DNA of 44,491 bases from Desulfocapsaceae bacterium (GTDB lineage: Bacteria; Desulfobacterota; Desulfobulbia; Desulfobulbales; Desulfocapsaceae). Of the stretch, positions 12,457 through 44,241 are shown piece after piece. The notes beneath the pieces were generated by a model, which saw only the letters and a program-made list of their open reading frames with translations, had not been told where the DNA came from and did no database searches. Location of the stretch: NCBI GenBank assembly GCA_030653035.1, contig JAUSAB010000051.1, positions 1 to 44,491 of the forward strand. The letters run 5' to 3'. A program made the position numbers and the translations under genes. How positions within the stretch are numbered: the first letter of the stretch is position 1; every line of letters starts with the position of its first letter.

Positions 12457-13401
12457 GGAGTCGGTTAGCTCCACCTAAAGCATAATTCCACAGTAAATTT
12501 CTCCCAAAAAGGAGGCGCAGTGAAACTAATACTGCTGAAGCCAGGACTTGACTACCCGAATACCTATCGCAACTTTGTTGAAATGTTTTCTGACGACGCT
12601 GCTTGTTCAGCTTATCTGGCAAAATTACGTTGGTCAGAAGGGTTCGTCTGCCCTGCCTGCAAAACAAATTCTCCCCCTTGGCATGCAAGTCGTGGCCGCC
12701 TCACTTGCCAGTTTTGCCGCCATCAAACGTCAGTCACTGCAGGGACGATCTTTGATAAGACACGGACACCACTGACAACCTGGCTCGAGGCCGCGTGGCA
12801 CGTGAGCACAGCCAAAAACGGCATGTCTGCCAAAACGCTGGCGCGCACGTTGGGAACGAAAATCGAGTTGCGTGGACCATGTTACAGCGATTTCGTGTGG
12901 CCATGGTCGACGCCGAACGCAAACAGCTTTTTGGCAACATTGAAGTTGATGAAACCTTCATCGGTGGCGTCAAGCAGGGCGGCAAACAAGGCCGTGGCGC
13001 CACTAAAAGTATCGTGGCAATTGCCGTAGAAATAAAGAAACCCTCAGGTTTTGGCCGCGTACGAATGCGCCACATACCCGATGCTTCCGGTGCCTGCTTG
13101 CTGCCGTTTGTGTGCGACGTAACTGATCTAGGCTCTGTTGTTCACACCGATGGAAGGAGCGGATACAATGTTAAAGCGCTGGATTCTTGGTACACACAAA
13201 GGATCTGCAGTTCCTGAACACCTTCAGTCTTATCTGGAGGAGTTCACTTTCAAATTCAATAGACGCGCATCTCGGAGCCGTGGTCTCGTTTTCCGAAGAC
13301 TGCTTGACGGGGCAGTTGCTACTGGACCAGTTGCCGAGTACGACGGAACTAAAGGATATAACTGGGGGTAGTTAGTCAGGTGGCGCTAACCGACTACCCC
13401 C
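12457..13401 (+). mobile_element. Decayed IS1595-family insertion sequence
   Basis: The right end (13401 inward: GGGGGTAGTCGGTTAGCGCC, continuing ACCT) and the left end (12457: GGAGTCGGTTAGCTCCACCT) form imperfect terminal inverted repeats around a broken transposase gene. The left repeat has lost the outer G-run, and I see no clear target duplication. Both facts fit an old insertion. It lies between the rplY terminators and pth. Confidence 0.8.
12520..13371 (+). pseudogene. IS1595-family transposase, frameshifted and internally deleted
   Basis: Three reading-frame pieces make up one transposase. The first (from 12520) has the N-terminal zinc ribbon CPACKTN...CQFCRHQT and runs to KTLARTLG near 12855. 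The frame then shifts and continues as NRVAWTMLQRF and GNIEVDETFIGG (a catalytic Asp region) to VVHTDGRSGYN near 13170. A second shift leads to LKRWILGTHKGSAVPEHLQ and YLEEFTFKFNRR, ending at 13371. Between GYN and LKRW, a few dozen residues present in intact family members appear to be missing. The gene cannot encode an active enzyme by normal translation. Confidence 0.85.
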
Positions 13402-13403
13402 TT

Positions 13404-13442
13404 TAAAAAAAAATCCGGAAAAAGCCATAGCTCTCTCCGGAT
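13404..13442 (-). terminator. Second terminator downstream of rplY, abutting the IS
   Basis: On the minus strand ATCCGGA pairs with TCCGGAT around an inner AGAGC/GGCTTT helix and is followed by a run of T. The IS right end starts 3 bp beyond. Confidence 0.75.
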
Positions 13443-13444
13443 AA

Positions 13445-13468
13445 AAAACAAGACAACTCTCTTGTTTT
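13445..13468 (-). terminator. First terminator downstream of rplY
   Basis: AAAACAAGA and TCTTGTTTT form a 9-bp stem with a 6-nt loop. The minus strand continues with T-rich sequence. It lies just downstream of the rplY stop codon, in tandem with the next hairpin. Confidence 0.65.
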
Positions 13469-13482
13469 AATATTATTTCAAA

Positions 13483-14046
13483 TCACGCTGCTGAGGGTGC
13501 CTGAATTGTTACACAAACCGCATCACCCGATGTGAGCATCTTGAGGGTATCAGGAAACACCAGATTACTAACTGTGAAATTATCTCCAATTGCCAACTCG
13601 GTCACATCCACTTCGATCGTGTCAGGGATATCAAGAGGGTTCCCCTCGACTATCACTTTATTGGAAACAACCTCCAAAATCCCACCGACATCCACCCCTT
13701 TCGCCGCACCGGTCACAACAAGACTAACGGTAAACTTACGGACTTTATCCAGAGGAATCTCATAAAAATCAGCATGAATCAAGGTATCACGAACCGGATC
13801 GGTCTGCAATTCCTTAATCAAAACATGCCGGGAAGAATCTCCTTCAATATTTAAAGTAATAACCGCATTACGCCTTTGAATTTTTAATAACTGTTTAACA
13901 AGTGGCAGGGTCTCAAGCTGAAGAGACAGTGCCTCACGACCTGTTCCATACAGAACCGCCGGGGTATTTCCGGCCATCCGTAAACGCCGCATGGCCCCCT
14001 TCCCAAAATCTTTTCTTACTGAAGCGGACATTTCTTGTTGAAGCAT
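13483..14046 (-). CDS. rplY: 50S ribosomal protein L25 (general stress protein Ctc type)
   Basis: The 187-residue protein binds 5S rRNA. The N-terminal L25 domain (MSASVRKDFGKGAMRRLR, AVLYG, HADFYEI) is followed by the C-terminal beta domain of the long Ctc/TL5 form. The ATG at 14046 has GGAGG 5 nt upstream; an in-frame ATG five codons earlier overlaps that site. It lies downstream of prs in the ispE, tRNA-Gln, prs, rplY series and ends at two tandem terminators. Confidence 0.94.
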   Translation of the reverse strand: MLQQEMSASVRKDFGKGAMRRLRMAGNTPAVLYGTGREALSLQLETLPLVKQLLKIQRRNAVITLNIEGDSSRHVLIKELQTDPVRDTLIHADFYEIPLDKVRKFTVSLVVTGAAKGVDVGGILEVVSNKVIVEGNPLDIPDTIEVDVTELAIGDNFTVSNLVFPDTLKMLTSGDAVCVTIQAPSAA

Positions 14047-32662: not shown

Positions 32663-32697
32663 GGGCTGATCGTTCAATCAATATAAGGAGCGTGAAT

Positions 32698-33117
32698 ATG
32701 GAGTTTCAATTTTCAGACTTTCTTTATCGCGACAATGTCCTCTGGATTGCGGCCTTCACCTTGGGTGGTCTCGCTTTTGCTTTTGGCCCCATCGCCATTG
32801 TTTATCTCCTCATGCCTCGCGGCACCCGTCAATTCGAAAACAGAAACAAGCAAGCCATTGAGTGCGGCATGGTTCCCATTGGTGACAGCTGGGTACGTTA
32901 TGGCGTTGTTTTTTTTCTGTATACCCTCATCTTTCTGGCCTTTGACGTCGATGTTCTTTTTCTGTTCCCGGTTGCCCTTGCTTACAATAATGAGATGTTT
33001 GCCTATAGGGATTTTGTAGAAATCGTCATCTTTGTCGGGATTTTATCACTCGCAATCGTTTACGCATGGACAAAGGGAGTATTCAAGTGGGAACGCAAAA
33101 TATACCTTCACCGTTAG
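32698..33117 (+). CDS. nuoA: Complex I subunit NuoA
   Basis: The 139-residue membrane subunit has three predicted helices, with the loop motif [20 protein letters not shown] and [12 protein letters not shown]. NuoA lies at the junction of the peripheral and membrane arms, near the quinone site. The ATG at 32698 has AAGGAG 7 nt upstream; a GTG two codons earlier is too close to that site. It opens the operon directly behind a strong promoter and overlaps nuoB. Confidence 0.94.
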
Positions 33118-33605
33118 AAGCAGTACCTTCATCATTTGTTCAATTTGCCATCGCCGACAAACTGATCAATCTAGGCCGGGCAAATTCCTTATGGCCACTT
33201 ACTTTCGGTTTGGCATGTTGCGCCATTGAGATGATGGCAACAGGATGTGCCAGATTTGACATGTCAAGATTTGGCGCCGAGGTCTTTCGCCCATCGCCAC
33301 GACAAAGTGATGTGATGATTGTAGCCGGCACCATTTCCAAAAAAATGCAACCGGGCATAAAAACACTCTACGATCAGATGCCTGAACCTAAATGGGTTAT
33401 GGCGTTAGGCAACTGTGCTATCTCGGGTGGACCTTTTGCATTTGAAGGACAGTATGGCATTGTCTTGGGCGCCGACCAGTTTTTACCGGTTGATGTCTAT
33501 ATCCCCGGATGCCCTCCACGGCCAGAGGCGCTCCTGCAGGGCATCATTGAGCTCGAACATAAAATTTCCGGCTGGAAAAGATGGAAAGACCCTGAAGCTG
33601 TATAA
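33087..33605 (+). CDS. nuoB: Complex I subunit NuoB (N2 cluster)
   Basis: This peripheral-arm subunit carries the terminal [4Fe-4S] cluster N2, which reduces quinone. The cysteine motifs are present: [21 protein letters not shown] and [12 protein letters not shown] favour the GTG at 33087, with AAGGGAG 7 nt upstream (172 residues). The ATG at 33066 is an in-frame alternative without a ribosome binding site. Either start lies inside the end of nuoA, so the two are coupled. Confidence 0.93.
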
Positions 33606-33688
33606 ACAAATTACAGCTTCCACGCCAAGTTTAATGCAATAAAGTCAACATCTTAAACCGCATCACACTCCTTCGGAGCCACAGGATC

Positions 33689-34177
33689 ATGATATTAGAA
33701 ACAACACAACAAGCACTGCAAGCACTCTTTGCCGGATCTGTTCCAGCAGATGGAGCTGAGGCTGCTACCCCTAGGGGTAATGGTGTTATCACTCGTAATT
33801 ACAAAATCCATGGATACCATCTTGACGCTCAGGTTGCCACAGACCAACTTCTTGCAGCTGTCACTATTCTTGATCATGCTGGATTTTTTATTGAAAGTAT
33901 CACCGGTGTTGACTGGATTAAAGAAAACCAGATGGAAGTCATCTATGATTTCTCCCGTTACGACTTTGACACCTGTCGAGTGGTTATCCGCACCAGAGTT
34001 CCTCGTGATCAACCCTTAGTGCCCACTATTTCCACAATATACGCCGGAGCAAACTGGCATGAGCGGGAGACCCATGATTTTTTTGGCATCAAGTTCACGG
34101 GTCACCCCCACCTCGTTCCCCTGCTCCTTCCTGAAGATGCAGATTTCCATCCACTCTTAAAGGATTTCAAGGCATGA
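33689..34177 (+). CDS. nuoC: Complex I subunit NuoC (30 kDa)
   Basis: The 162-residue peripheral subunit has the family signature WHERETHDFFGIKFTGHP and the ending LLLPEDADFHPLLKDF. It is separate from NuoD, not fused as in E. coli. Its stop overlaps the nuoD ATG by 4 nt. An 83-bp gap without features separates it from nuoB. Confidence 0.94.
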   Translation: MILETTQQALQALFAGSVPADGAEAATPRGNGVITRNYKIHGYHLDAQVATDQLLAAVTILDHAGFFIESITGVDWIKENQMEVIYDFSRYDFDTCRVVIRTRVPRDQPLVPTISTIYAGANWHERETHDFFGIKFTGHPHLVPLLLPEDADFHPLLKDFKA

Positions 34178-35292
34178 GCGCACCAATTCAACTCCGACCG
34201 GATGAAACATTTATCCTGAATGTAGGCCCCCAGCATCCTGCAACCCACGGTGTCCTCCGGGTTAAAATGCAAATGGATGGTGAATATATTGTCAAGTCAG
34301 AAACTGTCCTTGGCTATATCCATCGCATGCACGAAAAAATGGGAGAGAACAGAACATACGCCCAGTATCTTCCAAACCTAAGTCGCCTCGATTATCTTGG
34401 CGCTTTAGGCTATACCCATGGTCATGTCCTGGCTATAGAACGGGCCGCAGGAATCGAGGTGCCAGAACGTGCTGAGTATATCAGGGCCATCACCGTTGAA
34501 CTCAATCGAGTGGCATCACACCTTTTCTGGTTCGGGGCCTTTGTCATGGACCTTGGTGGCTTCAGCCCTCTTATGTACGCCATTCAGGATCGTGAACATA
34601 TTCTTGATATGCTGGAGGCAGTAACCGGCGCCCGTTTAACCTATTGTTATTACCGTTTTGGTGGTCTCTACAATGATGTGGACGATGATTTCACTGAGGC
34701 AGCAAAACGTTTTATCCCCCGCATGCGTAAATCTCTCAAAAAATATGACGCCTTGGTGACAGGCAATATTATCTTTCAAAAACGCCTGGAAGGGATCGCC
34801 CCTGTTTCTGCTGAGATGTGCCGTAAATATGGGGCCACTGGCCCCGTTGCCAGAGGATCTGGAATCAACTTTGATGTCCGCAAAAATGAGCCATATTCTG
34901 TCTACCCTGAATTTGACTTCGACATCCCGGTCTATCATGAATGCGACTCCATGGCTCGCTACAAGGTTCGCATGGATGAAATGGAACAATCACTGCGGAT
35001 CATCGAACAGGGTTTAGAGAAATTACCTGGCGGTCCTATCATGGCCGAGAAAAAACCAAAGAATATTAAACTGCCAGTAGGTGATTTCTATCAGGCAGTG
35101 GAAACCGCACGCGGCAGTTTTGGAATCAGAATCGTCAGCGATGGTGACAAAAATGCCTATCGACTGAAACTGCGCTCACCAACATATTCGAATATGCATC
35201 TTTTTGATGAGGCATGTGAGGGGATGTTGATTATGGATGCCCTTGCATTTATGGGAACTTTGGACCTCGTCATACCAGAAATGGACAGGTAA
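34174..35292 (+). CDS. nuoD: Complex I subunit NuoD (49 kDa)
   Basis: The 372-residue subunit forms the quinone cavity with NuoB. It is homologous to the large subunit of [NiFe] hydrogenases but lacks the metal-binding cysteines. The quinone-site loop VGPQHPATHGVLR is present, with YIHRMHEKMGENRTYAQYLP and ARGSFGIRIVSDG. It ends PEMDR, near the usual VDR ending. In canonical operons nuoE, nuoF and nuoG follow here. In this one, nuoH follows after only 92 bp. Confidence 0.95.
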   Translation: MSAPIQLRPDETFILNVGPQHPATHGVLRVKMQMDGEYIVKSETVLGYIHRMHEKMGENRTYAQYLPNLSRLDYLGALGYTHGHVLAIERAAGIEVPERAEYIRAITVELNRVASHLFWFGAFVMDLGGFSPLMYAIQDREHILDMLEAVTGARLTYCYYRFGGLYNDVDDDFTEAAKRFIPRMRKSLKKYDALVTGNIIFQKRLEGIAPVSAEMCRKYGATGPVARGSGINFDVRKNEPYSVYPEFDFDIPVYHECDSMARYKVRMDEMEQSLRIIEQGLEKLPGGPIMAEKKPKNIKLPVGDFYQAVETARGSFGIRIVSDGDKNAYRLKLRSPTYSNMHLFDEACEGMLIMDALAFMGTLDLVIPEMDR

Positions 35293-35384
35293 TTTCATTT
35301 CTAAATCAAAATGGAACAACAACTGACAACAGCTAAGCAGCGATGTTACCATTTGATTGGAAAATGGACTAAGGGAGAAGGACA

Positions 35385-36371
35385 ATGAGTTTAACATTAC
35401 TAAATGTCATAGTTGCTGTGGTGATAGCCATCGCCTTTGCAGCTGCCAACGCCGCCTATCTGGTCTGGGCTGAGCGTAGAGGTGCAGCCCGCATCCAGCG
35501 CCGTCCAGGGCCAAATATCAATGGACCGTTTGGACTGTTGCAGCCACCTCTTGACGGCATCAAACTGATGACCAAACAGTTGATGATCCCGGGAGGAGCT
35601 GACAAAATTCTATTTATGGTAGCCCCGGTACTGGCTATGGCACCAGCGATTATGAGTTTTGTCACCATCCCTTTCAGCGAGGGAATCGCCGCCCATAACA
35701 TGGAGATTGGCGTACTCATGATCTTCGCTTTTGCCTCCATGGGCGCGATGGCAATACTTTTTGCCGGCTGGGGATCTCGCAACAAGTATTCAGTCATGGC
35801 CTCGGTCAGAGCAGTCTCACAAAATGTCTCCTATGAAATTCCCATGCTGATCACTGCGATCACCGTGGTCATGGTCAATGGTTCCATGGATCTCAAAGCA
35901 ATCAGTACAGCCCAGGCTGGTGGTTTCTGGCACTGGAATATCTTTCCATCGCTGCAGAGTCCATTAATGCCTATCTCTTTTATCATTTTTTTCATCTGCT
36001 CCTTGGCAGAAACCAATCGTGCCCCCTTTGATCTTGGCGAAGCCGAGAGTGAACTGGTAGCCGGTTTCCACACAGAGTATGGTAGTATGGGCTTTGGTCT
36101 CTTCTTTATGGGAGAATATGCAAATATTGTCATTGGCGCCAGCCTGACAACTATTCTTTTTCTTGGTGGTTGGGATTGTCCTTTTGGCATGTTTCCGGGT
36201 GTCTGGTGGTTCTTACTCAAAATTTACATCCTTATCGCTACATTTATCTGGATTCGCTGGACCTTCCCCCGAACCACCATTTACGGACTGCTTAATCTGT
36301 CCTGGAAAATACTTATTCCTATCTCCTTGTTCAACCTGCTGCTCACAGCAGGATTACTGAAGGTGTTCTAA
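35385..36371 (+). CDS. nuoH: Complex I subunit NuoH
   Basis: The 328-residue membrane subunit links the quinone cavity to the proton channels. It has about eight helices. The conserved cytoplasmic loops are present: AERRGAARIQRRPGPN, GPFGLLQPPLDGIKL and NRAPFDLGEAESELVAGFHTEY, rich in the charged residues of the E-channel. The ATG follows GGGAGAAGG. A 25-codon frame (35311-35388) ends on the nuoH ATG but has no ribosome binding site. Confidence 0.95.
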   Translation: MSLTLLNVIVAVVIAIAFAAANAAYLVWAERRGAARIQRRPGPNINGPFGLLQPPLDGIKLMTKQLMIPGGADKILFMVAPVLAMAPAIMSFVTIPFSEGIAAHNMEIGVLMIFAFASMGAMAILFAGWGSRNKYSVMASVRAVSQNVSYEIPMLITAITVVMVNGSMDLKAISTAQAGGFWHWNIFPSLQSPLMPISFIIFFICSLAETNRAPFDLGEAESELVAGFHTEYGSMGFGLFFMGEYANIVIGASLTTILFLGGWDCPFGMFPGVWWFLLKIYILIATFIWIRWTFPRTTIYGLLNLSWKILIPISLFNLLLTAGLLKVF

Positions 36372-36372
36372 T

Positions 36373-36840
36373 ATGGGCGGTTATTTCAGCGAAATATTCA
36401 ATGGTAGTAAAAGCTTGCTCATTGGAATGGGTATAACCTTTCGGGAATTTTTCAAACCAACAGTAACTGTTCAATATCCTTATCAGACTATTAAGATGTC
36501 GGCACGGTTTCGTGGACATATCGAACTTATTGCCGATGAAGAAGGGAAGCCTAAATGCGTCGTCTGCGGAATGTGCGAGCGCGCCTGTCCTTCTGGCTGT
36601 ATCACCCTTGGCTCAACCTCGATAGAGATCGAGGTTGACGGCAAGATCAAAAAGAAGAAGGTTTTAAGCAAATACGATCTTGATTTCACCAAATGTTCTC
36701 TGTGTGGACAATGTGTTGAAAATTGTAGTTTTGGGGCAATAGAATTTTCAAAAGAATATAATCTTGCGTCTACTCGCAAGGAAGATTACCACTTTAATCT
36801 TCTTGAACGATTGAAGCGCTTGGAGGAGAGAAACGCATGA
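36373..36840 (+). CDS. nuoI: Complex I subunit NuoI (two [4Fe-4S] clusters)
   Basis: The 155-residue ferredoxin-like subunit holds clusters N6a and N6b: CVVCGMCERACPSGC and CSLCGQCVENCSFGA. It is the entry point to N2. With no NuoE, F or G encoded here, NuoI would be the outermost redox subunit and the likely docking site for an external donor such as ferredoxin (inference). It starts 1 bp after nuoH and overlaps nuoJ by 4 nt. Confidence 0.95.
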   Translation: MGGYFSEIFNGSKSLLIGMGITFREFFKPTVTVQYPYQTIKMSARFRGHIELIADEEGKPKCVVCGMCERACPSGCITLGSTSIEIEVDGKIKKKKVLSKYDLDFTKCSLCGQCVENCSFGAIEFSKEYNLASTRKEDYHFNLLERLKRLEERNA

Positions 36841-37385
36841 ATCCTTCCGTGGCCATAACAGAAGCGCCAGGTCTATTCACCGCTGACGGCCTGACTGGTC
36901 TGATATTTCTCATCATGATGGCAGTAACTCTCATTGGTGGAATTATTTCCTGTTGTGCAGAGCGACTAGTACGGGCAGTAGCAGGCCTCATTGTCTGTTT
37001 TATCGGGGTGGCCGCCCTCTATTATTTCCTAAACTCGCCCTTTATAGCCATGATGCAGATGCTCATCTATGTGGGGGCCGTCTGTATCACCATTGCCTTT
37101 GCCATCATGCTCGCCGCCCCAGAAGAAAGTAAAAAAAATGGCCCGGATGGACCCTTGTCAGGACCTCTGGGATTTATTACTGCAGGTCTGGTCACCATCG
37201 GATTGATCGTTATGGCGATGAGGGCAAAATTTACCTCTCTCCCCAAGGTCAGTGATGGGACGATAAAAGAAATGGGAATCCAGCTTCTGACCAGTTATTC
37301 CATGGTCTTTGAACTCATATCCATTGTCCTGTTGATTGCAATTATTGGGGCATTAGTTTTGGCCCGTGCTGGGAGGAGCAAATAA
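36837..37385 (+). CDS. nuoJ: Complex I subunit NuoJ
   Basis: The 182-residue protein has five predicted helices. FIAMMQMLIYVGAVCITIAFAI contains the family's TM3 region with its pi-bulge-type sequence (the YVGA core). It overlaps nuoI by 4 nt and shares one base with nuoK (stop TAATG). Confidence 0.93.
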   Translation: MNPSVAITEAPGLFTADGLTGLIFLIMMAVTLIGGIISCCAERLVRAVAGLIVCFIGVAALYYFLNSPFIAMMQMLIYVGAVCITIAFAIMLAAPEESKKNGPDGPLSGPLGFITAGLVTIGLIVMAMRAKFTSLPKVSDGTIKEMGIQLLTSYSMVFELISIVLLIAIIGALVLARAGRSK

Positions 37386-37711
37386 TGTCTCTACTTACTC
37401 TGTACAACAACCTTAACACCTTTCTTTGTCTGGCAGCCATGTTGTTTGGTATGGGCATCTACGGGCTTGTAACCCGTCGAACACTCATCGGGATGCTTAT
37501 TGCCTCTGAACTGATACTCGCCGCAGCGTCTATTAACTTTATGGCCTTTAACCGGTTTACGGCACCAGACCCCACAGTAGGGCAGGTATTTACCCTTTTC
37601 ATCATGGCCATTGCCGCAGCAGAGGCCGCCATTGGACTGAGCATAATCATTGCAGTGTATCGAAATTATAAATCTATCGACACTGAAGATCTGGTCGAAC
37701 TTAAAGGTTAG
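37385..37711 (+). CDS. nuoK: Complex I subunit NuoK
   Basis: The 108-residue protein has three helices and is of the NuoK/MrpC type. The conserved glutamates of the membrane proton path are visible in MLIASELILAAASINF and in AIAAAEAAIGLSIIIA. It is tightly placed between nuoJ and the first antiporter-like gene. Confidence 0.94.
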   Translation: MSLLTLYNNLNTFLCLAAMLFGMGIYGLVTRRTLIGMLIASELILAAASINFMAFNRFTAPDPTVGQVFTLFIMAIAAAEAAIGLSIIIAVYRNYKSIDTEDLVELKG

Positions 37712-37728: not shown

Positions 37729-39210
37729 ATGGATATAACAACGGTCAGTTCCGTAAAACTTCTCATAACTCTACTCGTTCCGCTTATTGGCACCCTTGGT
37801 GTCATGTTTATGGGGAAAAACGAGAATATCAGGGAAGGCATCTCGTCGGTTGCCTCAATCATCCTGTTTTTACTTGTCGCCTCAATGATTCCGACAGTAC
37901 TTTCCGGTAAAACTTTGATCTTTCACATGTTCAGCATCCTTCCCGGAGTCAGCGTTACCCTGCGGGCTGACGCTATGTCCATGATTTTTGCCTTGGTGGC
38001 ATCATCCCTGTGGACCATCGCCGTCTTTTACTCCATGGGATATATGCGCGCCCACCACGAACATGCACAAACCCGGTTTAATGCCTGTTTTGCCCTGGCA
38101 ATCTTTGGCGCAATCGGTGTCGCATTTTCCGACAACCTTTTTACCCTTTATCTTTTTTACGAGATCGTATCAATCTGCACCTACCCTCTGGTTGCCCATC
38201 ATCAGGACACAGAAGGTTACAATGGTGCCCGGAAATATATTATCTATCTGACCACAACGGCCAAAGCATTTCTGTTGCCAGCTCTAATATTAATCTATGT
38301 CTTGACTGGAACCCTCGATTTTGCACCCAATATATCGACAGGCATTTTCCCACCAGATGTCAACAAGAGCCTAGTGATCATGCTCTACATTTTCTGTCTC
38401 TTCGGTTTTGCCAAAAACGGGGTTATGCCCTTTCATCACTGGCTGCCAGGCGCCATGGTTGCACCCACTCCCGTATCCGCTCTGCTCCATGCTGTGGCCG
38501 TTGTTAAGGTTGGTGTCTTCTGTACCACAAGAGTTATGCTGTATGTCTTTGGAGTGGATACCATGCATGCCTTGAACCTTGGGATTCCAACAGCCTACTT
38601 TGTCGGATTTACCGTGATTATGGCCTCAGTCCTGGCCTTGTCCAAAAATAACCTTAAGGAACGGTTGGCCTACTCAACCATCAGCCAGCTTTCTTATATC
38701 ATCATGGGTGTGGCGCTTCTTACCCCTGCAGGTATTGACGGTGGGCTGATCCATATCGTCAATCATGCCTTTTCCAAGATTACCCTCTTCTTTTGCGCAG
38801 GAGCCATTTATATTGCCGCTCACAAGAAAGATATCTCGGATATGGGGGGACTGGGCAAGACCATGCCCTTTACCTTTGGGGCCTTTGCCGTTGCCTCACT
38901 CTCCATGATCGGAGCGCCACCAGTTGCCGGATTCATTACCAAATGGAATCTGCTTGTTGGCTCCATTCAGGCCCACCAGATCGGGATACTGCTCATCCTG
39001 ATCGCCAGTACCATGCTCAATGTCGGGTATTTCGCACCCGTTACCATTAAGGCCTTTTTCGGCAAACGTCCGGACGGTGAAACGTATCAAGGTATCAAAG
39101 AGGCGCCATTGTCCATGCTCATCCCCATTCTCATCGCATGTACGATCTCTGTTCTCCTTGGAATCTTTCCTAACTTCATGATGCAATTTGTTAAGGTGGT
39201 GACAGGATGA
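37729..39210 (+). CDS. Antiporter-like subunit 1 of complex I (NuoL/MrpD type, short form)
   Basis: The 493-residue polytopic protein (about 14 helices) is of the proton-conducting antiporter family. The key charged residues are in place: Glu145 (LFYEIVSICTYPLV), Lys229 (FAKNGVMPFHHWLPGA), a second Lys in the HAVAVVKVGVF helix and Lys405 (FITKWNLLVGS). They match the TM5 Glu, TM7 Lys, TM8 Lys and TM12 Lys of the family. It lacks the C-terminal lateral helix of a true NuoL. It resembles MrpD and formate hydrogenlyase-type subunits more than NuoL. It takes the position where nuoL is normally found, and its stop overlaps the start of the next gene. Confidence 0.88.
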   Translation: MDITTVSSVKLLITLLVPLIGTLGVMFMGKNENIREGISSVASIILFLLVASMIPTVLSGKTLIFHMFSILPGVSVTLRADAMSMIFALVASSLWTIAVFYSMGYMRAHHEHAQTRFNACFALAIFGAIGVAFSDNLFTLYLFYEIVSICTYPLVAHHQDTEGYNGARKYIIYLTTTAKAFLLPALILIYVLTGTLDFAPNISTGIFPPDVNKSLVIMLYIFCLFGFAKNGVMPFHHWLPGAMVAPTPVSALLHAVAVVKVGVFCTTRVMLYVFGVDTMHALNLGIPTAYFVGFTVIMASVLALSKNNLKERLAYSTISQLSYIIMGVALLTPAGIDGGLIHIVNHAFSKITLFFCAGAIYIAAHKKDISDMGGLGKTMPFTFGAFAVASLSMIGAPPVAGFITKWNLLVGSIQAHQIGILLILIASTMLNVGYFAPVTIKAFFGKRPDGETYQGIKEAPLSMLIPILIACTISVLLGIFPNFMMQFVKVVTG

Positions 39211-39458
39211 TTGTCAATTTTATCGATTATCTACGAGACCGGCTACAGACAGTTATCTATTGTTGCTATGGTGGTATTACCTTCATAGTAATCTGGAGCC
39301 TGACTGTTGATACCAGCCACGCCCATACCTGGGCCGAAAAGATGATACCCGGATTCTGGTCTCTCTTTGGCCTTGGTTCCTGTGCAGTCGTTATTATGGT
39401 GGCAAGATTGCTCGGGAAAAGCGGGATCATGACCAGAGAGGATTATTATGACAACTAA
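39207..39458 (+). CDS. Small membrane protein inserted between the two antiporter-like subunits
   Basis: This 83-residue protein has two predicted helices (about residues 15-32 and 50-66), a short polar loop with HAHTWAEK, and an acidic end. It matches no canonical complex I subunit that I recognise. Its ATG overlaps the upstream stop (ATGA), and its 3' end overlaps the next gene by 11 bp. It must be translated together with both antiporter-like subunits. I infer an accessory subunit that packs between them. Confidence 0.75.
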   Translation: MIVNFIDYLRDRLQTVIYCCYGGITFIVIWSLTVDTSHAHTWAEKMIPGFWSLFGLGSCAVVIMVARLLGKSGIMTREDYYDN

Positions 39459-41262: not shown

Positions 41263-42789
41263 ATGGATCAACTACTTATAAATCCAAATTATCCACATAT
41301 TCTAAGCATTTTGATTTTCTTGCCGTTGGCAGGGGCATTATTATTATTCTTTGTGCAAAATGATTACTTTGCCCGTTTTTGGGCCTTGGGAATTGCAACT
41401 CTTACCGCCATACTCTCCATCCCCCTTGTCAGTGCCTTTGACCAAACATCAAGCAAGTTTCAATTTGCTGAACAGTACAGCTGGATAAACTCACTCAATA
41501 TTCATTATGTTATCGGGGTTGATGGGATCTCTATCTTGTTGGTGATGCTGACAACATTGATCATGCCTCTCTGTATTCTGGCGTCATGGACTTATATTAA
41601 GACCCGCGTACAGGCCTTCATGATCTGCCTGCTGATTATGGAAACTGCCATGCTCGGTGTCTTCATGGCCTTGGATTTTGTACTGTTTTACATCCTCTGG
41701 GAGGCCATGCTGATTCCCATGTACCTGCTCATCGGGATCTGGGGTGGTCCAAGAAAAATTTACGCATCAATCAAGTTTTTCCTTTATACCCTGGCAGGTT
41801 CCATCATGCTGCTGGTTGGAATTATCTGGCTCTACAAAACAAATAATTACTCCTTTTTTATCCCGGATATGATGTGGCAGAATTATTCACTGACCGCTCA
41901 GATCTATCTCTTTTTGGCCTTCTTTCTGGCCTTTGCCATCAAGGTTCCCATGTTTCCATTTCATACATGGTTACCAGCAGCACATGTGGAAGCGCCAACG
42001 GCAGGTTCTGTTATCCTGGCCTCCGTTCTCTTGAAGATGGGGACCTATGGCTTTCTCCGCTTTGCCTTGCCCATAACACCACAGGCTACCACGCTGCTCA
42101 TGCCGTATGTACTCTGGTTGTCGATTGCGGGCATTATCTATGGAGGTTTTACCGCTCTTGCCCAGCATGACATGAAAAAGCTGATCGCCTATTCCTCTGT
42201 TGGTCATATGGGATTTGTCACTCTGGGTATCTTTGTCCTTAACCTTGAAGGCATAGAAGGTGCCATCCTGCAGATGATTAACCATGGCATTACCACTGGC
42301 GCCCTATTCCTCTGTGTAGGAATGATCTACGAGAGAACGCACAGTCGTGAACTTCGTTCCGCCACCGGTGTTGGCAAATATATGCCAATCTATGTTACCT
42401 TTCTGGCCTTTTTCTCCCTCTCATCTTTTGGTTTTCCAGGAACGAACAGCTTTGTTGGCGAATTCATGATCCTTGCTGGTACGTTCAAACACAGTACAAC
42501 CCTTGCCCTGGCCGCCATTCCTGGTGCGGTCCTTGCCGCCGCCTACATGCTGCGCATGCTGCAAAAGATAATCTGGGGGGGAACGGATAATCCTGATCAG
42601 TCCTGGCTCAAGGATTTGAATCTGCGTGAGATTATAACATTATGCCCTTTCCTCTTTTTTGTTTTCTGGATTGGACTGGGACCACAGCCTTTTATTGATC
42701 TCATGCACATCAGTGTTGTAAACCTCCTAACGCAGTTTCATGCGCATCAGGGTCAGGCAGTTGCCGCTGCAGACTTAATTTTTCATTAA
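41263..42789 (+). CDS. nuoM: Complex I subunit NuoM
   Basis: The 508-residue antiporter-like subunit is clearly NuoM by its key residues. These are Glu147 (YILWEAMLIPMYLLIG), Lys227 (FAIKVPMFPFHTWLPAAHVEAP), the TM8 Lys (SVLLKMGTYGFLRF) and, diagnostic for NuoM, Glu400 in TM12 (SFVGEFMILAG) instead of Lys. A GAGGACC-type weak site precedes the ATG. It follows the second antiporter-like gene by 27 bp. Confidence 0.95.
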   Translation: MDQLLINPNYPHILSILIFLPLAGALLLFFVQNDYFARFWALGIATLTAILSIPLVSAFDQTSSKFQFAEQYSWINSLNIHYVIGVDGISILLVMLTTLIMPLCILASWTYIKTRVQAFMICLLIMETAMLGVFMALDFVLFYILWEAMLIPMYLLIGIWGGPRKIYASIKFFLYTLAGSIMLLVGIIWLYKTNNYSFFIPDMMWQNYSLTAQIYLFLAFFLAFAIKVPMFPFHTWLPAAHVEAPTAGSVILASVLLKMGTYGFLRFALPITPQATTLLMPYVLWLSIAGIIYGGFTALAQHDMKKLIAYSSVGHMGFVTLGIFVLNLEGIEGAILQMINHGITTGALFLCVGMIYERTHSRELRSATGVGKYMPIYVTFLAFFSLSSFGFPGTNSFVGEFMILAGTFKHSTTLALAAIPGAVLAAAYMLRMLQKIIWGGTDNPDQSWLKDLNLREIITLCPFLFFVFWIGLGPQPFIDLMHISVVNLLTQFHAHQGQAVAAADLIFH

Positions 42790-42828: not shown

Positions 42829-44241
42829 ATGCAATTTCTACCTGAGTTAGCACTGTTGGGAGCGGCTCTTGTCATCTTCCTGGTCAGTATAGGAAAGACT
42901 GACGCTGACAAAATAAAAATGATTGCTATTAGTCTTGGAGTAGCAGTATTTGCGGCAACGCTTTTCAGCTTAGGCCAGGATGGGCGACTTTTTTATGACG
43001 CCTACAAGATAGACCTTTACTCTCAGGTTTTCAAGACCTTGATTGCCGGGGCTATGTTGGTTGTCCTTATCCTGGGACGGAAACTGAAAGATATACAAAA
43101 CAGTGTTCATCCCGAGTACTATCTTTTTTTGTTTATCAGCGTCCTTGGTCTCATGATGCTGGTCTCAAGCGTTGAACTTCTATCAATTTTTGTGGCTATG
43201 GAACTCTCTTCCTTTGCTGTCTATATCATGGTTCCCATGCGTAATGACTCTGGGAATTATCATTTTCAGATGGAAGCCGGCATTAAATATCTGCTTTTTG
43301 GTGTCACCGCAACCGGATTCATGCTTTTTGGCATGAGCTATATGTTTGGTTTGACTGGATCGACTCAACTTGTAGTGGTCATGGAAAAACTTTCACATTT
43401 ATACAATCAACCAGCAGCAATCGTGGCTATCATGATGGTACTGGCAGGTTTCTTCTATAAACTTGCCCTCTTTCCTTTTCATTTCTGGGTGCCAGATGTC
43501 TATGAAGGCGCCTCCAATGAGACTACTGCCTTTATTGCCTCCGTCCCTAAACTAGCCGCAGTTGCTTTGCTGATTCGTCTTGTCAGTATGGTGAATGGAG
43601 AAGGACACGCTATTGTCAACATCCTGATGGTCTGTGCCGTTCTCTCCATGTTTTATGGTAACCTGTCAGCCCTTGTCCAGACCGATATCAAACGTATGCT
43701 TGGATTTTCAGGCATAGCCCATGCTGGATTTGTTCTCCTTGGTATATTAACCTTCCAAATCAGTGGCTACGCCAACGCCCTCTACTATATTATCGGTTAT
43801 GTAGTGATGAACCTGGCCTGTTTTCTGGTTATCTGTTCTGTTTCCAGCAATGGCGAGAATGTTCAGATCAAGGATTTAAGCGGGCTACATAAACGTTCAC
43901 CATTACTTGCGTTTACCTTGGCGGTGGCCCTTTTTGCACTCGCGGGCATTCCTCCCTTTGTTGGCTTTATGGGTAAATTCATGTTGCTTGCGGGTGCATT
44001 AAAACAAGGGTATCTCATTCTGGTCATCCTTGCTGCCATTAATACGGCAATTGCCATCTTTTATTATCTTTCTGTGGTTCGTGTCACCTTCTGCAGTGAT
44101 CCTGAAAACAATAACAGTATTGTCAGTGGCCTCTTTACTAACATGACATCCATTGTGCTTCTGCTCATTATTGTTATCATGGGTGTTGTCCCTCAACAAT
44201 TTGTTGATTTTGCCACATCTACTGTCCAATCAATGATGTAA
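42829..44241 (+). CDS. nuoN: Complex I subunit NuoN
   Basis: The 470-residue antiporter-like subunit next to NuoK has Glu125 (VAMELSSFAVYIMV), Lys211 (FFYKLALFPFHFWVPDVYEGA), a TM8 Lys (SVPKLAAVALL) and Lys383 (VGFMGKFMLLAGAL). The PFHFWVPDVYEGA signature is typical of NuoN. It is the last gene of the operon, followed by a strong terminator. Confidence 0.95.
   Translation: MQFLPELALLGAALVIFLVSIGKTDADKIKMIAISLGVAVFAATLFSLGQDGRLFYDAYKIDLYSQVFKTLIAGAMLVVLILGRKLKDIQNSVHPEYYLFLFISVLGLMMLVSSVELLSIFVAMELSSFAVYIMVPMRNDSGNYHFQMEAGIKYLLFGVTATGFMLFGMSYMFGLTGSTQLVVVMEKLSHLYNQPAAIVAIMMVLAGFFYKLALFPFHFWVPDVYEGASNETTAFIASVPKLAAVALLIRLVSMVNGEGHAIVNILMVCAVLSMFYGNLSALVQTDIKRMLGFSGIAHAGFVLLGILTFQISGYANALYYIIGYVVMNLACFLVICSVSSNGENVQIKDLSGLHKRSPLLAFTLAVALFALAGIPPFVGFMGKFMLLAGALKQGYLILVILAAINTAIAIFYYLSVVRVTFCSDPENNNSIVSGLFTNMTSIVLLLIIVIMGVVPQQFVDFATSTVQSMM

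Follow-up and report, generated by a model that had tools for sequence, protein, structure and literature searches.

Green complex I was reportedly described by Degli Esposti and Martinez Romero in 2016. In rhizobia, according to the available portions of two further reports, two MrpD-like subunits replace NuoL in this enzyme (PMC9040806, PMC7415380). The same two MrpD-like proteins occur in Complex_I_3 of 'Ca. Manganitrophaceae', and the accessible text on such complexes with more than three pumps stresses a 26-residue insertion in the lateral helix (PMC9040806). Among the Mrp antiporters, group 3 operons are characterized, in the part of the source at hand, by having no mrpA and one or more mrpD (PMC8415708). 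An open question of bioenergetics is how many antiporter-like subunits can be arrayed in a complex I and by what they are coupled. We analysed an operon in which two antiporter-like genes enclose a third, small gene. The exchange of two proteins for NuoL is already known; the small gene between them appears to belong to an unnamed family.

The stretch of DNA that was analysed, hereafter the window, measures 44,491 nt and carries an operon in the order nuoA, B, C, D, H, I, J, K, X1, SML, X2, nuoM, nuoN (Table 1), where SML denotes the small protein and X1 and X2 the antiporter-like proteins encoded upstream and downstream of it. NuoA, NuoJ and NuoK were checked by profile, whereas NuoB, C, D, H and I were assigned from sequence, gene order and matches to the same genes in related loci. 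The families above whose cut-offs X1 and X2 score are named 'putative monovalent cation/H+ antiporter subunit D' (NF006236) and 'Na(+)/H(+) antiporter subunit D' (NF009310) in NCBIfam. Against the NuoL model TIGR01974, X2 reaches 168 bits and thus stays below the cut-off of 407.5. The operon contains neither nuoE, nuoF and nuoG nor nuoL, and the 118 contigs of the window's genome gave no match to NuoL (TIGR01974) at E ≤ 1e-100 and none to NuoF (TIGR01959) at E ≤ 1e-20. Judged by this gene content, the operon encodes a headless complex I: NuoL is replaced by X1 and X2, and X1-SML-X2 occupies its place. Elsewhere in the same genome, contig C42 (positions 39542-48513) holds three further antiporter-like genes with weak NF009310 matches; no second SML was found in this genome. 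Further upstream in the window, an ORF of 169 aa (12520-13029) has a start that we take to resemble the zinc-ribbon end of an IS1595-type transposase.

Table 1. Positions of the operon genes and of the SML features in the window.
Feature	Position	Strand	Basis
nuoA, B, C, D, H, I, J, K	32692..37711	+	upstream, same operon
X1, antiporter-like, 493 aa	37729..39210	+	over NCBIfam cut-off NF006236
SML, 83-aa protein, predicted two-helix	39207..39458	+	ORF read, selection, AlphaFold2
SML first predicted membrane helix, residues 13-31	39243..39299	+	AlphaFold2
SML second predicted membrane helix, residues 50-74	39354..39428	+	AlphaFold2
AGAGAGGA, likely X2 ribosome-binding site	39435-39442	+	sequence, codon bias
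SML EDYYD tail, residues 78-82	39438..39452	+	conservation, codon analysis
X2, antiporter-like, 595 aa	39448..41235	+	over NCBIfam cut-off NF009310, NuoL-like fold
nuoM	41263..42789	+	TIGR01972 over cut-off
nuoN	42829..44241	+	TIGR01770 over cut-off

The likeness to green complex I, as far as the available descriptions of it go, lies in the two MrpD-like proteins in place of NuoL, which in the window exceed antiporter-D cut-offs. Sinorhizobium meliloti has the order nuoJ-nuoK-X1-SML-X2-nuoM-nuoN, identical to that of the window, with identities of 54% for X1, 36% for SML and 48% for X2; on its plasmid pB the gene in the SML slot is annotated as 'hypothetical protein'. The rhizobial operon, however, has nuoEFG, whereas the window operon is without these genes of the NADH module. 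With Complex_I_3 the window shares the possession of more than three antiporter-like subunits, but it has one NuoM, which sets it apart from the complexes with more than three pumps as the accessible text presents them. The available description of group 3 Mrp operons fits many genomes in which the same three genes follow mrpE/F/G/B/C/D-like genes. The window operon itself is a complex I operon and not an Mrp operon, having nuo genes in place of the Mrp genes.

That SML is a gene at all deserves attention, given its size. The ORF begins with ATG and comprises 83 codons. With the end of X1 at 39210 and the start of X2 at 39448, it overlaps its neighbours by the 4 and 11 bp that the sequence-only reading had reported. 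The same reading held that the protein is made in step with its neighbours; in the window its translation is coupled to that of both. Between the window copy and 12 same-genus copies dN/dS ranges from 0.035 to 0.117, the lowest value (0.035) carrying a saturated dS of 3.0. Pooled over 78 pairs of 13 same-genus sequences, pN/pS is 0.134 in the SML frame and 1.62 and 2.32 in the wrong frames of the same DNA, the kind of codon-level conservation by which the earlier proposal was to be judged. SML is a real gene under purifying selection over the whole ORF.

We could not assign the protein to any known family. The window protein matched no Pfam and no NCBIfam family at E ≤ 1, and among its relatives no Pfam family was matched by more than 3 of 46 and no NCBIfam family by more than 3 of 71. 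Searches of the PDB returned a light-harvesting protein as the best sequence match (E 0.46) and nothing better than E 7 by fold. A known-family identity was thus pursued with Pfam and NCBIfam (single proteins and alignments) and with PDB sequences and folds, and yielded chance-level matches only. A match to NCBIfam NF005561, a model of 569 positions and hence longer than X1, led us to consider SML as the C-terminal part of that model; we dropped the idea, as SML has no NCBIfam match at E ≤ 1. The protein is therefore as unrecognised as it had first seemed, with no Pfam, NCBIfam or PDB relative found. It was also said to differ from NuoA, NuoJ, NuoK and the standard Mrp small subunits, which agrees with the lack of a profile match and with the presence of those genes as separate genes in the same operons.

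The AlphaFold2 model of SML, built on an alignment of 71 sequences (mean pLDDT 89.5, pTM 0.59), is a predicted two-helix hairpin, in line with the two helices suspected from the sequence. Besides the two long helices (13-31 and 50-74) it contains short ones at residues 2-11, 42-46 and 78-82. The numbers of K and R, which average 1.6 for residues 1-12, 1.2 for the loop and 2.1 for the tail, weakly favour both ends being inside. There is a precedent for a separate two-helix piece beside antiporter-like subunits: in Pyrococcus furiosus the N-terminal part of MbhI and helices 15-16 of MbsH' are, in the accessible part of the source, encoded apart from the antiporter-like subunits (PMC8415708). That piece, however, is as described there the end of a NuoL-like subunit, whereas X2 retains its own helices 15-16, and SML matched no PDB chain and no structure at better than the values given above. 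In the DAB1 inorganic-carbon complex, too, the gene of a small membrane protein, hneap_0908, lies between those of two partners of which one is NuoL-like; it is likened here by its description in the available text only (PMC13144422).

How constant is the association of SML with its neighbours? A homologue at E ≤ 0.01 was present in 53 of 58 related genomes. Of the five without one, three have a canonical NuoL (G005, G009, G047) and two neither (G003, G010), and four other genomes carry both kinds of complex I, the SML type and the one with canonical NuoL (G011, G013, G014, G016). By this pattern, the two types come and go inside a single genus. Among 296 genomes of the phylum, SML occurs in 132 (about 45%), X2 in 133 and both in 130. 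The few genomes with one and not the other divide as follows: in the two with SML only, the contigs stop inside or before X2; of those with X2 only, one has X2 beginning at base 5 of its contig, one (G239) revealed SML between X1 and X2 when the DNA was read, and in one the X2 match scores below the rest of the family. The slot is equally fixed. Among 150 listed SML places, X2 lies directly downstream on the same strand in 146, at a median distance of -1, and the four exceptions are contig ends; conversely, SML lies directly upstream in 146 of 150 listed X2 places, three of the other four starting a contig and the fourth being that of G239. A contig scan centred on X1, and hence independent of SML, was followed up for the best 80 of 585 confirmed loci. 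It found SML in 75 of them (44 Mrp-type, 31 Nuo-type); in four of the remaining five the contig ends 0, 2, 379 or 424 nt past X1, and the fifth is a locus, L184, to which we return below.

When the loci from both kinds of search are taken together, SML stands between X1 and X2 in 213 of 218 occurrences, a figure that counts some places twice (distinct sequences number 191). The other five comprise two locus or contig ends, one case in which a long overlapping frame upset the order, and the loci L098 and L151. The overlaps of the window are also widespread, with SML overlapping X1 in 106 of the 191 distinct copies and X2 in 156, the latter with the X2 start taken as the one nearest the SML end, a rule that tilts the counts toward overlap. 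Frames of 271-602 codons hinted at fusions of SML with X1, but re-annotation kept X1 separate and left these as overlapping frames; no SML domain was found on any X1 or X2 ORF in the loci read, that is, no natural fusion. By record title, SML reaches well beyond the phylum of the window: Marinimicrobia, Caldimicrobium and Deltaproteobacteria, Nitrospirota, Planctomycetota, Verrucomicrobia, Gemmatimonadetes, Spirochaetia, Clostridia and Pseudomonadota, nine phylum-level groups of which many records are metagenome bins. The sequence-only reading had looked to conserved presence in the same slot as support for a structural role, and to a lack of homologues in the same operon of related genomes as evidence against it. 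The former is what the 53 of 58 relatives and the 146 of 150 SML places with X2 downstream display, and the latter did not occur.

In its specific form, that reading supposed SML to be a spacer or lock that lets a fourth antiporter-like module join the arm, and in this form it is not supported. Nuo-type operons with the cassette do hold four antiporter-like genes (X1, X2, M and N). The same X1-SML-X2 cassette is, however, found in Mrp-type operons of the order E, F, G, (DUF4040), B, C, D, X1, SML, X2, which hold three antiporter-like proteins (mD, X1 and X2), and the fourth-module idea is weakened by their carrying SML all the same. Two exceptional loci add to this. L098 (3998-9774) is an Mrp-type operon with a tandem X1-SML-X2-SML-X2, whose second SML is divergent and keeps the acidic aromatic tail. 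L151 (13842-15870, minus strand) is a lone SML-X2 pair with no X1 within the 3.5 kb read and no Mrp genes on the same strand; it adjoins two ORFs (12680-13741) that by eye resemble regulators of the cyclic-nucleotide type. Since both loci show SML-X2 without an X1 of its own, SML would belong with X2. Going by these gene arrangements, the role of SML is not specific to a fourth pump. They suggest that its presence follows that of X2, which is NuoL-like and bears the lateral helix, and not how many modules there are. As a separate matter, in one single-contig genome (G030, locus L059) nuoH and nuoJ beside the cassette are split over three and two ORFs, which are frameshifts or sequencing errors.

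The sole clear exception among the loci seen is L184 (2734-4990), a deltaproteobacterial MAG contig on which X1 and X2 lie 16 nt apart with no SML between them. Either the complex may work without SML or the contig may be odd. A locus that manages without SML is what one would expect if SML were an assembly factor or an aid to the membrane insertion of X2, absent from the finished complex. Gene order and overlap, which put SML synthesis just before that of X2, and the pairing with X2 in L098 and L151 could be read in the same way. We nevertheless hold this explanation to be unlikely, if the strongest of those that compete with a subunit: co-occurrence is near-perfect and the slot fixed in two operon kinds and nine phylum-level groups, and such constancy is in our judgement commoner for a subunit, the genes of factors often moving.

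Weighted over 178 distinct SML sequences, position 44 is E or D in 92%, F50 is kept in 89%, G55 in 95%, C59 in 76% and K67 in 88% (the window has R at 67); F50, G55, C59 and position 67 are carried by the second helix. In the tail the same set gives 89% for E78, 80% for D79, 82% for Y80, 95% for Y81 and 70% for D82. The charges kept at or near the membrane (E or D44 and K67) raise the thought that SML lies in the ion path and, where X1 borders X2, supplies these residues and the tail carboxylates to complete a half-channel or a Na+/H+ site. X1 and X2, however, keep invariant or near-invariant charges of their own, E143, K227, H252, K348 and K403 in X1 and E125, K230, K308 and K363 in X2, the role of which we presume from what is known of the family. 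With their own charge sets, neither seems to need a borrowed residue. A hairpin from another protein that completes a half-channel does have a precedent, in that DabA2 gives a pair of helices to the NuoL-like DabB2 in the DAB2 structure as presented in the available text (PMC13144422), yet we regard an ion-conducting SML as improbable.

The conserved tail calls for a second look, as its codons do double duty. In the window EDYYD is written GAG GAT TAT TAT GAC, and AGAGAGGA lies inside these codons and the bases before them, ending 5 nt ahead of the ATG of X2 (39448-39450). The X2 start falls 8-14 nt before the SML end in 146 of the 191 distinct copies. Among such copies, GAG encodes E78 in 109 of 133, whereas it makes up 145 of 316 E codons at other positions of these genes (p 5e-13). 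The codon of Y81 leans to TAT, with 105 of 139 compared with 211 of 356 at other positions (p 8e-4). A weaker GAG bias at E78 appears in the 45 other copies, in which X2 mostly starts nearby (22 of 29 against 58 of 127, p 0.004). EDYYD is the strongest conserved motif of SML, but it shares bases with the ribosome-binding site and start codon of X2, and its conservation is thus partly explained by RNA. One could go further and suppose that translational coupling is the main reason why the ORF persists, its overlap delivering ribosomes to X2 and its peptide being of minor importance; the embedded X2 start and the GAG and TAT biases are what one would then expect. To our mind this is very improbable in view of the purifying selection on amino acids across the whole ORF and of the conserved F50, G55, C59 and K67, which are far from the overlap. 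Moreover, EDYY is kept in four of the five copies whose nearest X2 start is at least 20 nt downstream. The tail is thus constrained as RNA and, probably, as protein.

The AlphaFold2 model of X2 (pLDDT 90.3) is NuoL-like, with a predicted antiporter core, a long lateral helix at residues 495-569, where model confidence is lower (pLDDT 49-86), and a last membrane helix at 574-594; its best structural matches include NuoL chains and MrpD (Z 45). With an anchor in helix 15, the median distance to helix 16 is 86 residues in canonical NuoL (30 sequences, 5-95% range 86-92), 103 in Nuo-type X2 (85 rows, two of them the window's) and 101.5 in Mrp-type X2 (74 rows, 84-113). Over the helix region X2 would accordingly exceed canonical NuoL by about 17 residues, but the count depends on the alignment anchor: from an anchor 30 residues earlier, the distances are 130, 133 and 130.5. 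Set against the 26-residue insertion stressed in the available text on complexes with more than three pumps (PMC9040806), the medians for Nuo-type X2 and canonical NuoL are 103 versus 86 by one anchor and 133 versus 130 by the other. A hydropathy peak-picker gave a lateral helix of 80 in Escherichia coli NuoL and 96 in X2; a second version of it was discarded for picking the wrong helix in many rows (121 for E. coli, 131 for the window). Since the two anchors disagree, a longer lateral helix in X2 is a weak claim. Its length shows no rise with the number of antiporter-like genes.

In FastTree phylogenies the label of Nuo or Mrp context changes 2 times on X1, 6 times on X2 and 10 times on SML, and midpoint rooting of X1 separates 67 Mrp rows from 84 Nuo rows together with 7 Mrp rows. 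We limit the claim from these trees to context changes seeming few on X1. Mutual information between SML and X1 or X2, computed on 178 triples (Neff about 121), mainly reflects whether the operon is of the Nuo or the Mrp type, and no SML-X1 or SML-X2 pair stands out in both clades outside variable stretches.

Taken together, we favour SML as a permanent small subunit that belongs with X2 as its structural or assembly partner, and assign this a probability of about 0.62. Co-occurrence, the fixed slot, L098 and L151, the overlaps, purifying selection, the predicted hairpin and the conserved residues support it; L184, the lack of fusions and of standout covariation, the partial RNA explanation of EDYYD and the weak positive-inside signal count against it. 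In such a scheme X1, SML and X2 would be inherited as one cassette that replaces NuoL in one branch of complex I and MrpA in Mrp-type antiporters without mrpA. SML would be a membrane-embedded neighbour of X2, probably placed where X1 and X2 meet, and its two ends would face the cytoplasm. There it could hold X2 in place, possibly at the base of the lateral helix, or be needed for building X2 into the arm; ion movement by SML itself need not occur. A bolder version, which we offer tentatively and think rather less probable than its opposite, is that SML defines an unnamed subunit family, the obligate companion of the lateral-helix antiporter protein. X1-SML-X2 could then be a self-contained distal pump module that is plugged into quinone-reducing complex I in place of NuoL and into a stand-alone cation antiporter in place of MrpA, with SML as the adaptor letting two end-type pump proteins work side by side.

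The available literature on green complex I contained no mention of SML that we could find, although Degli Esposti & Martinez Romero 2016 and Chadwick et al. 2018 may mention it. For group 3 Mrp, the accessible text of three papers, figures aside, has no small gene between the extra antiporter-like genes (PMC5703873, PMC8415708, PMC7784846). PMC9040806 uses neither 'hypothetical protein' nor 'small protein', and PMC5703873 neither 'hypothetical' nor 'unknown function'. The cassette, present in about 45% of the genomes sampled from the phylum, is no curiosity. Probably, SML is a real and overlooked part of both a respiratory enzyme and the related salt pump, and one small gene offers a simple experimental handle. 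If SML is indeed a fixed subunit that accompanies every X1/X2 pair, the published part counts of green complex I and of cassette-bearing Mrp antiporters would be one too low, and models that explain a four-pump arm by the lateral helix alone would be missing a component.
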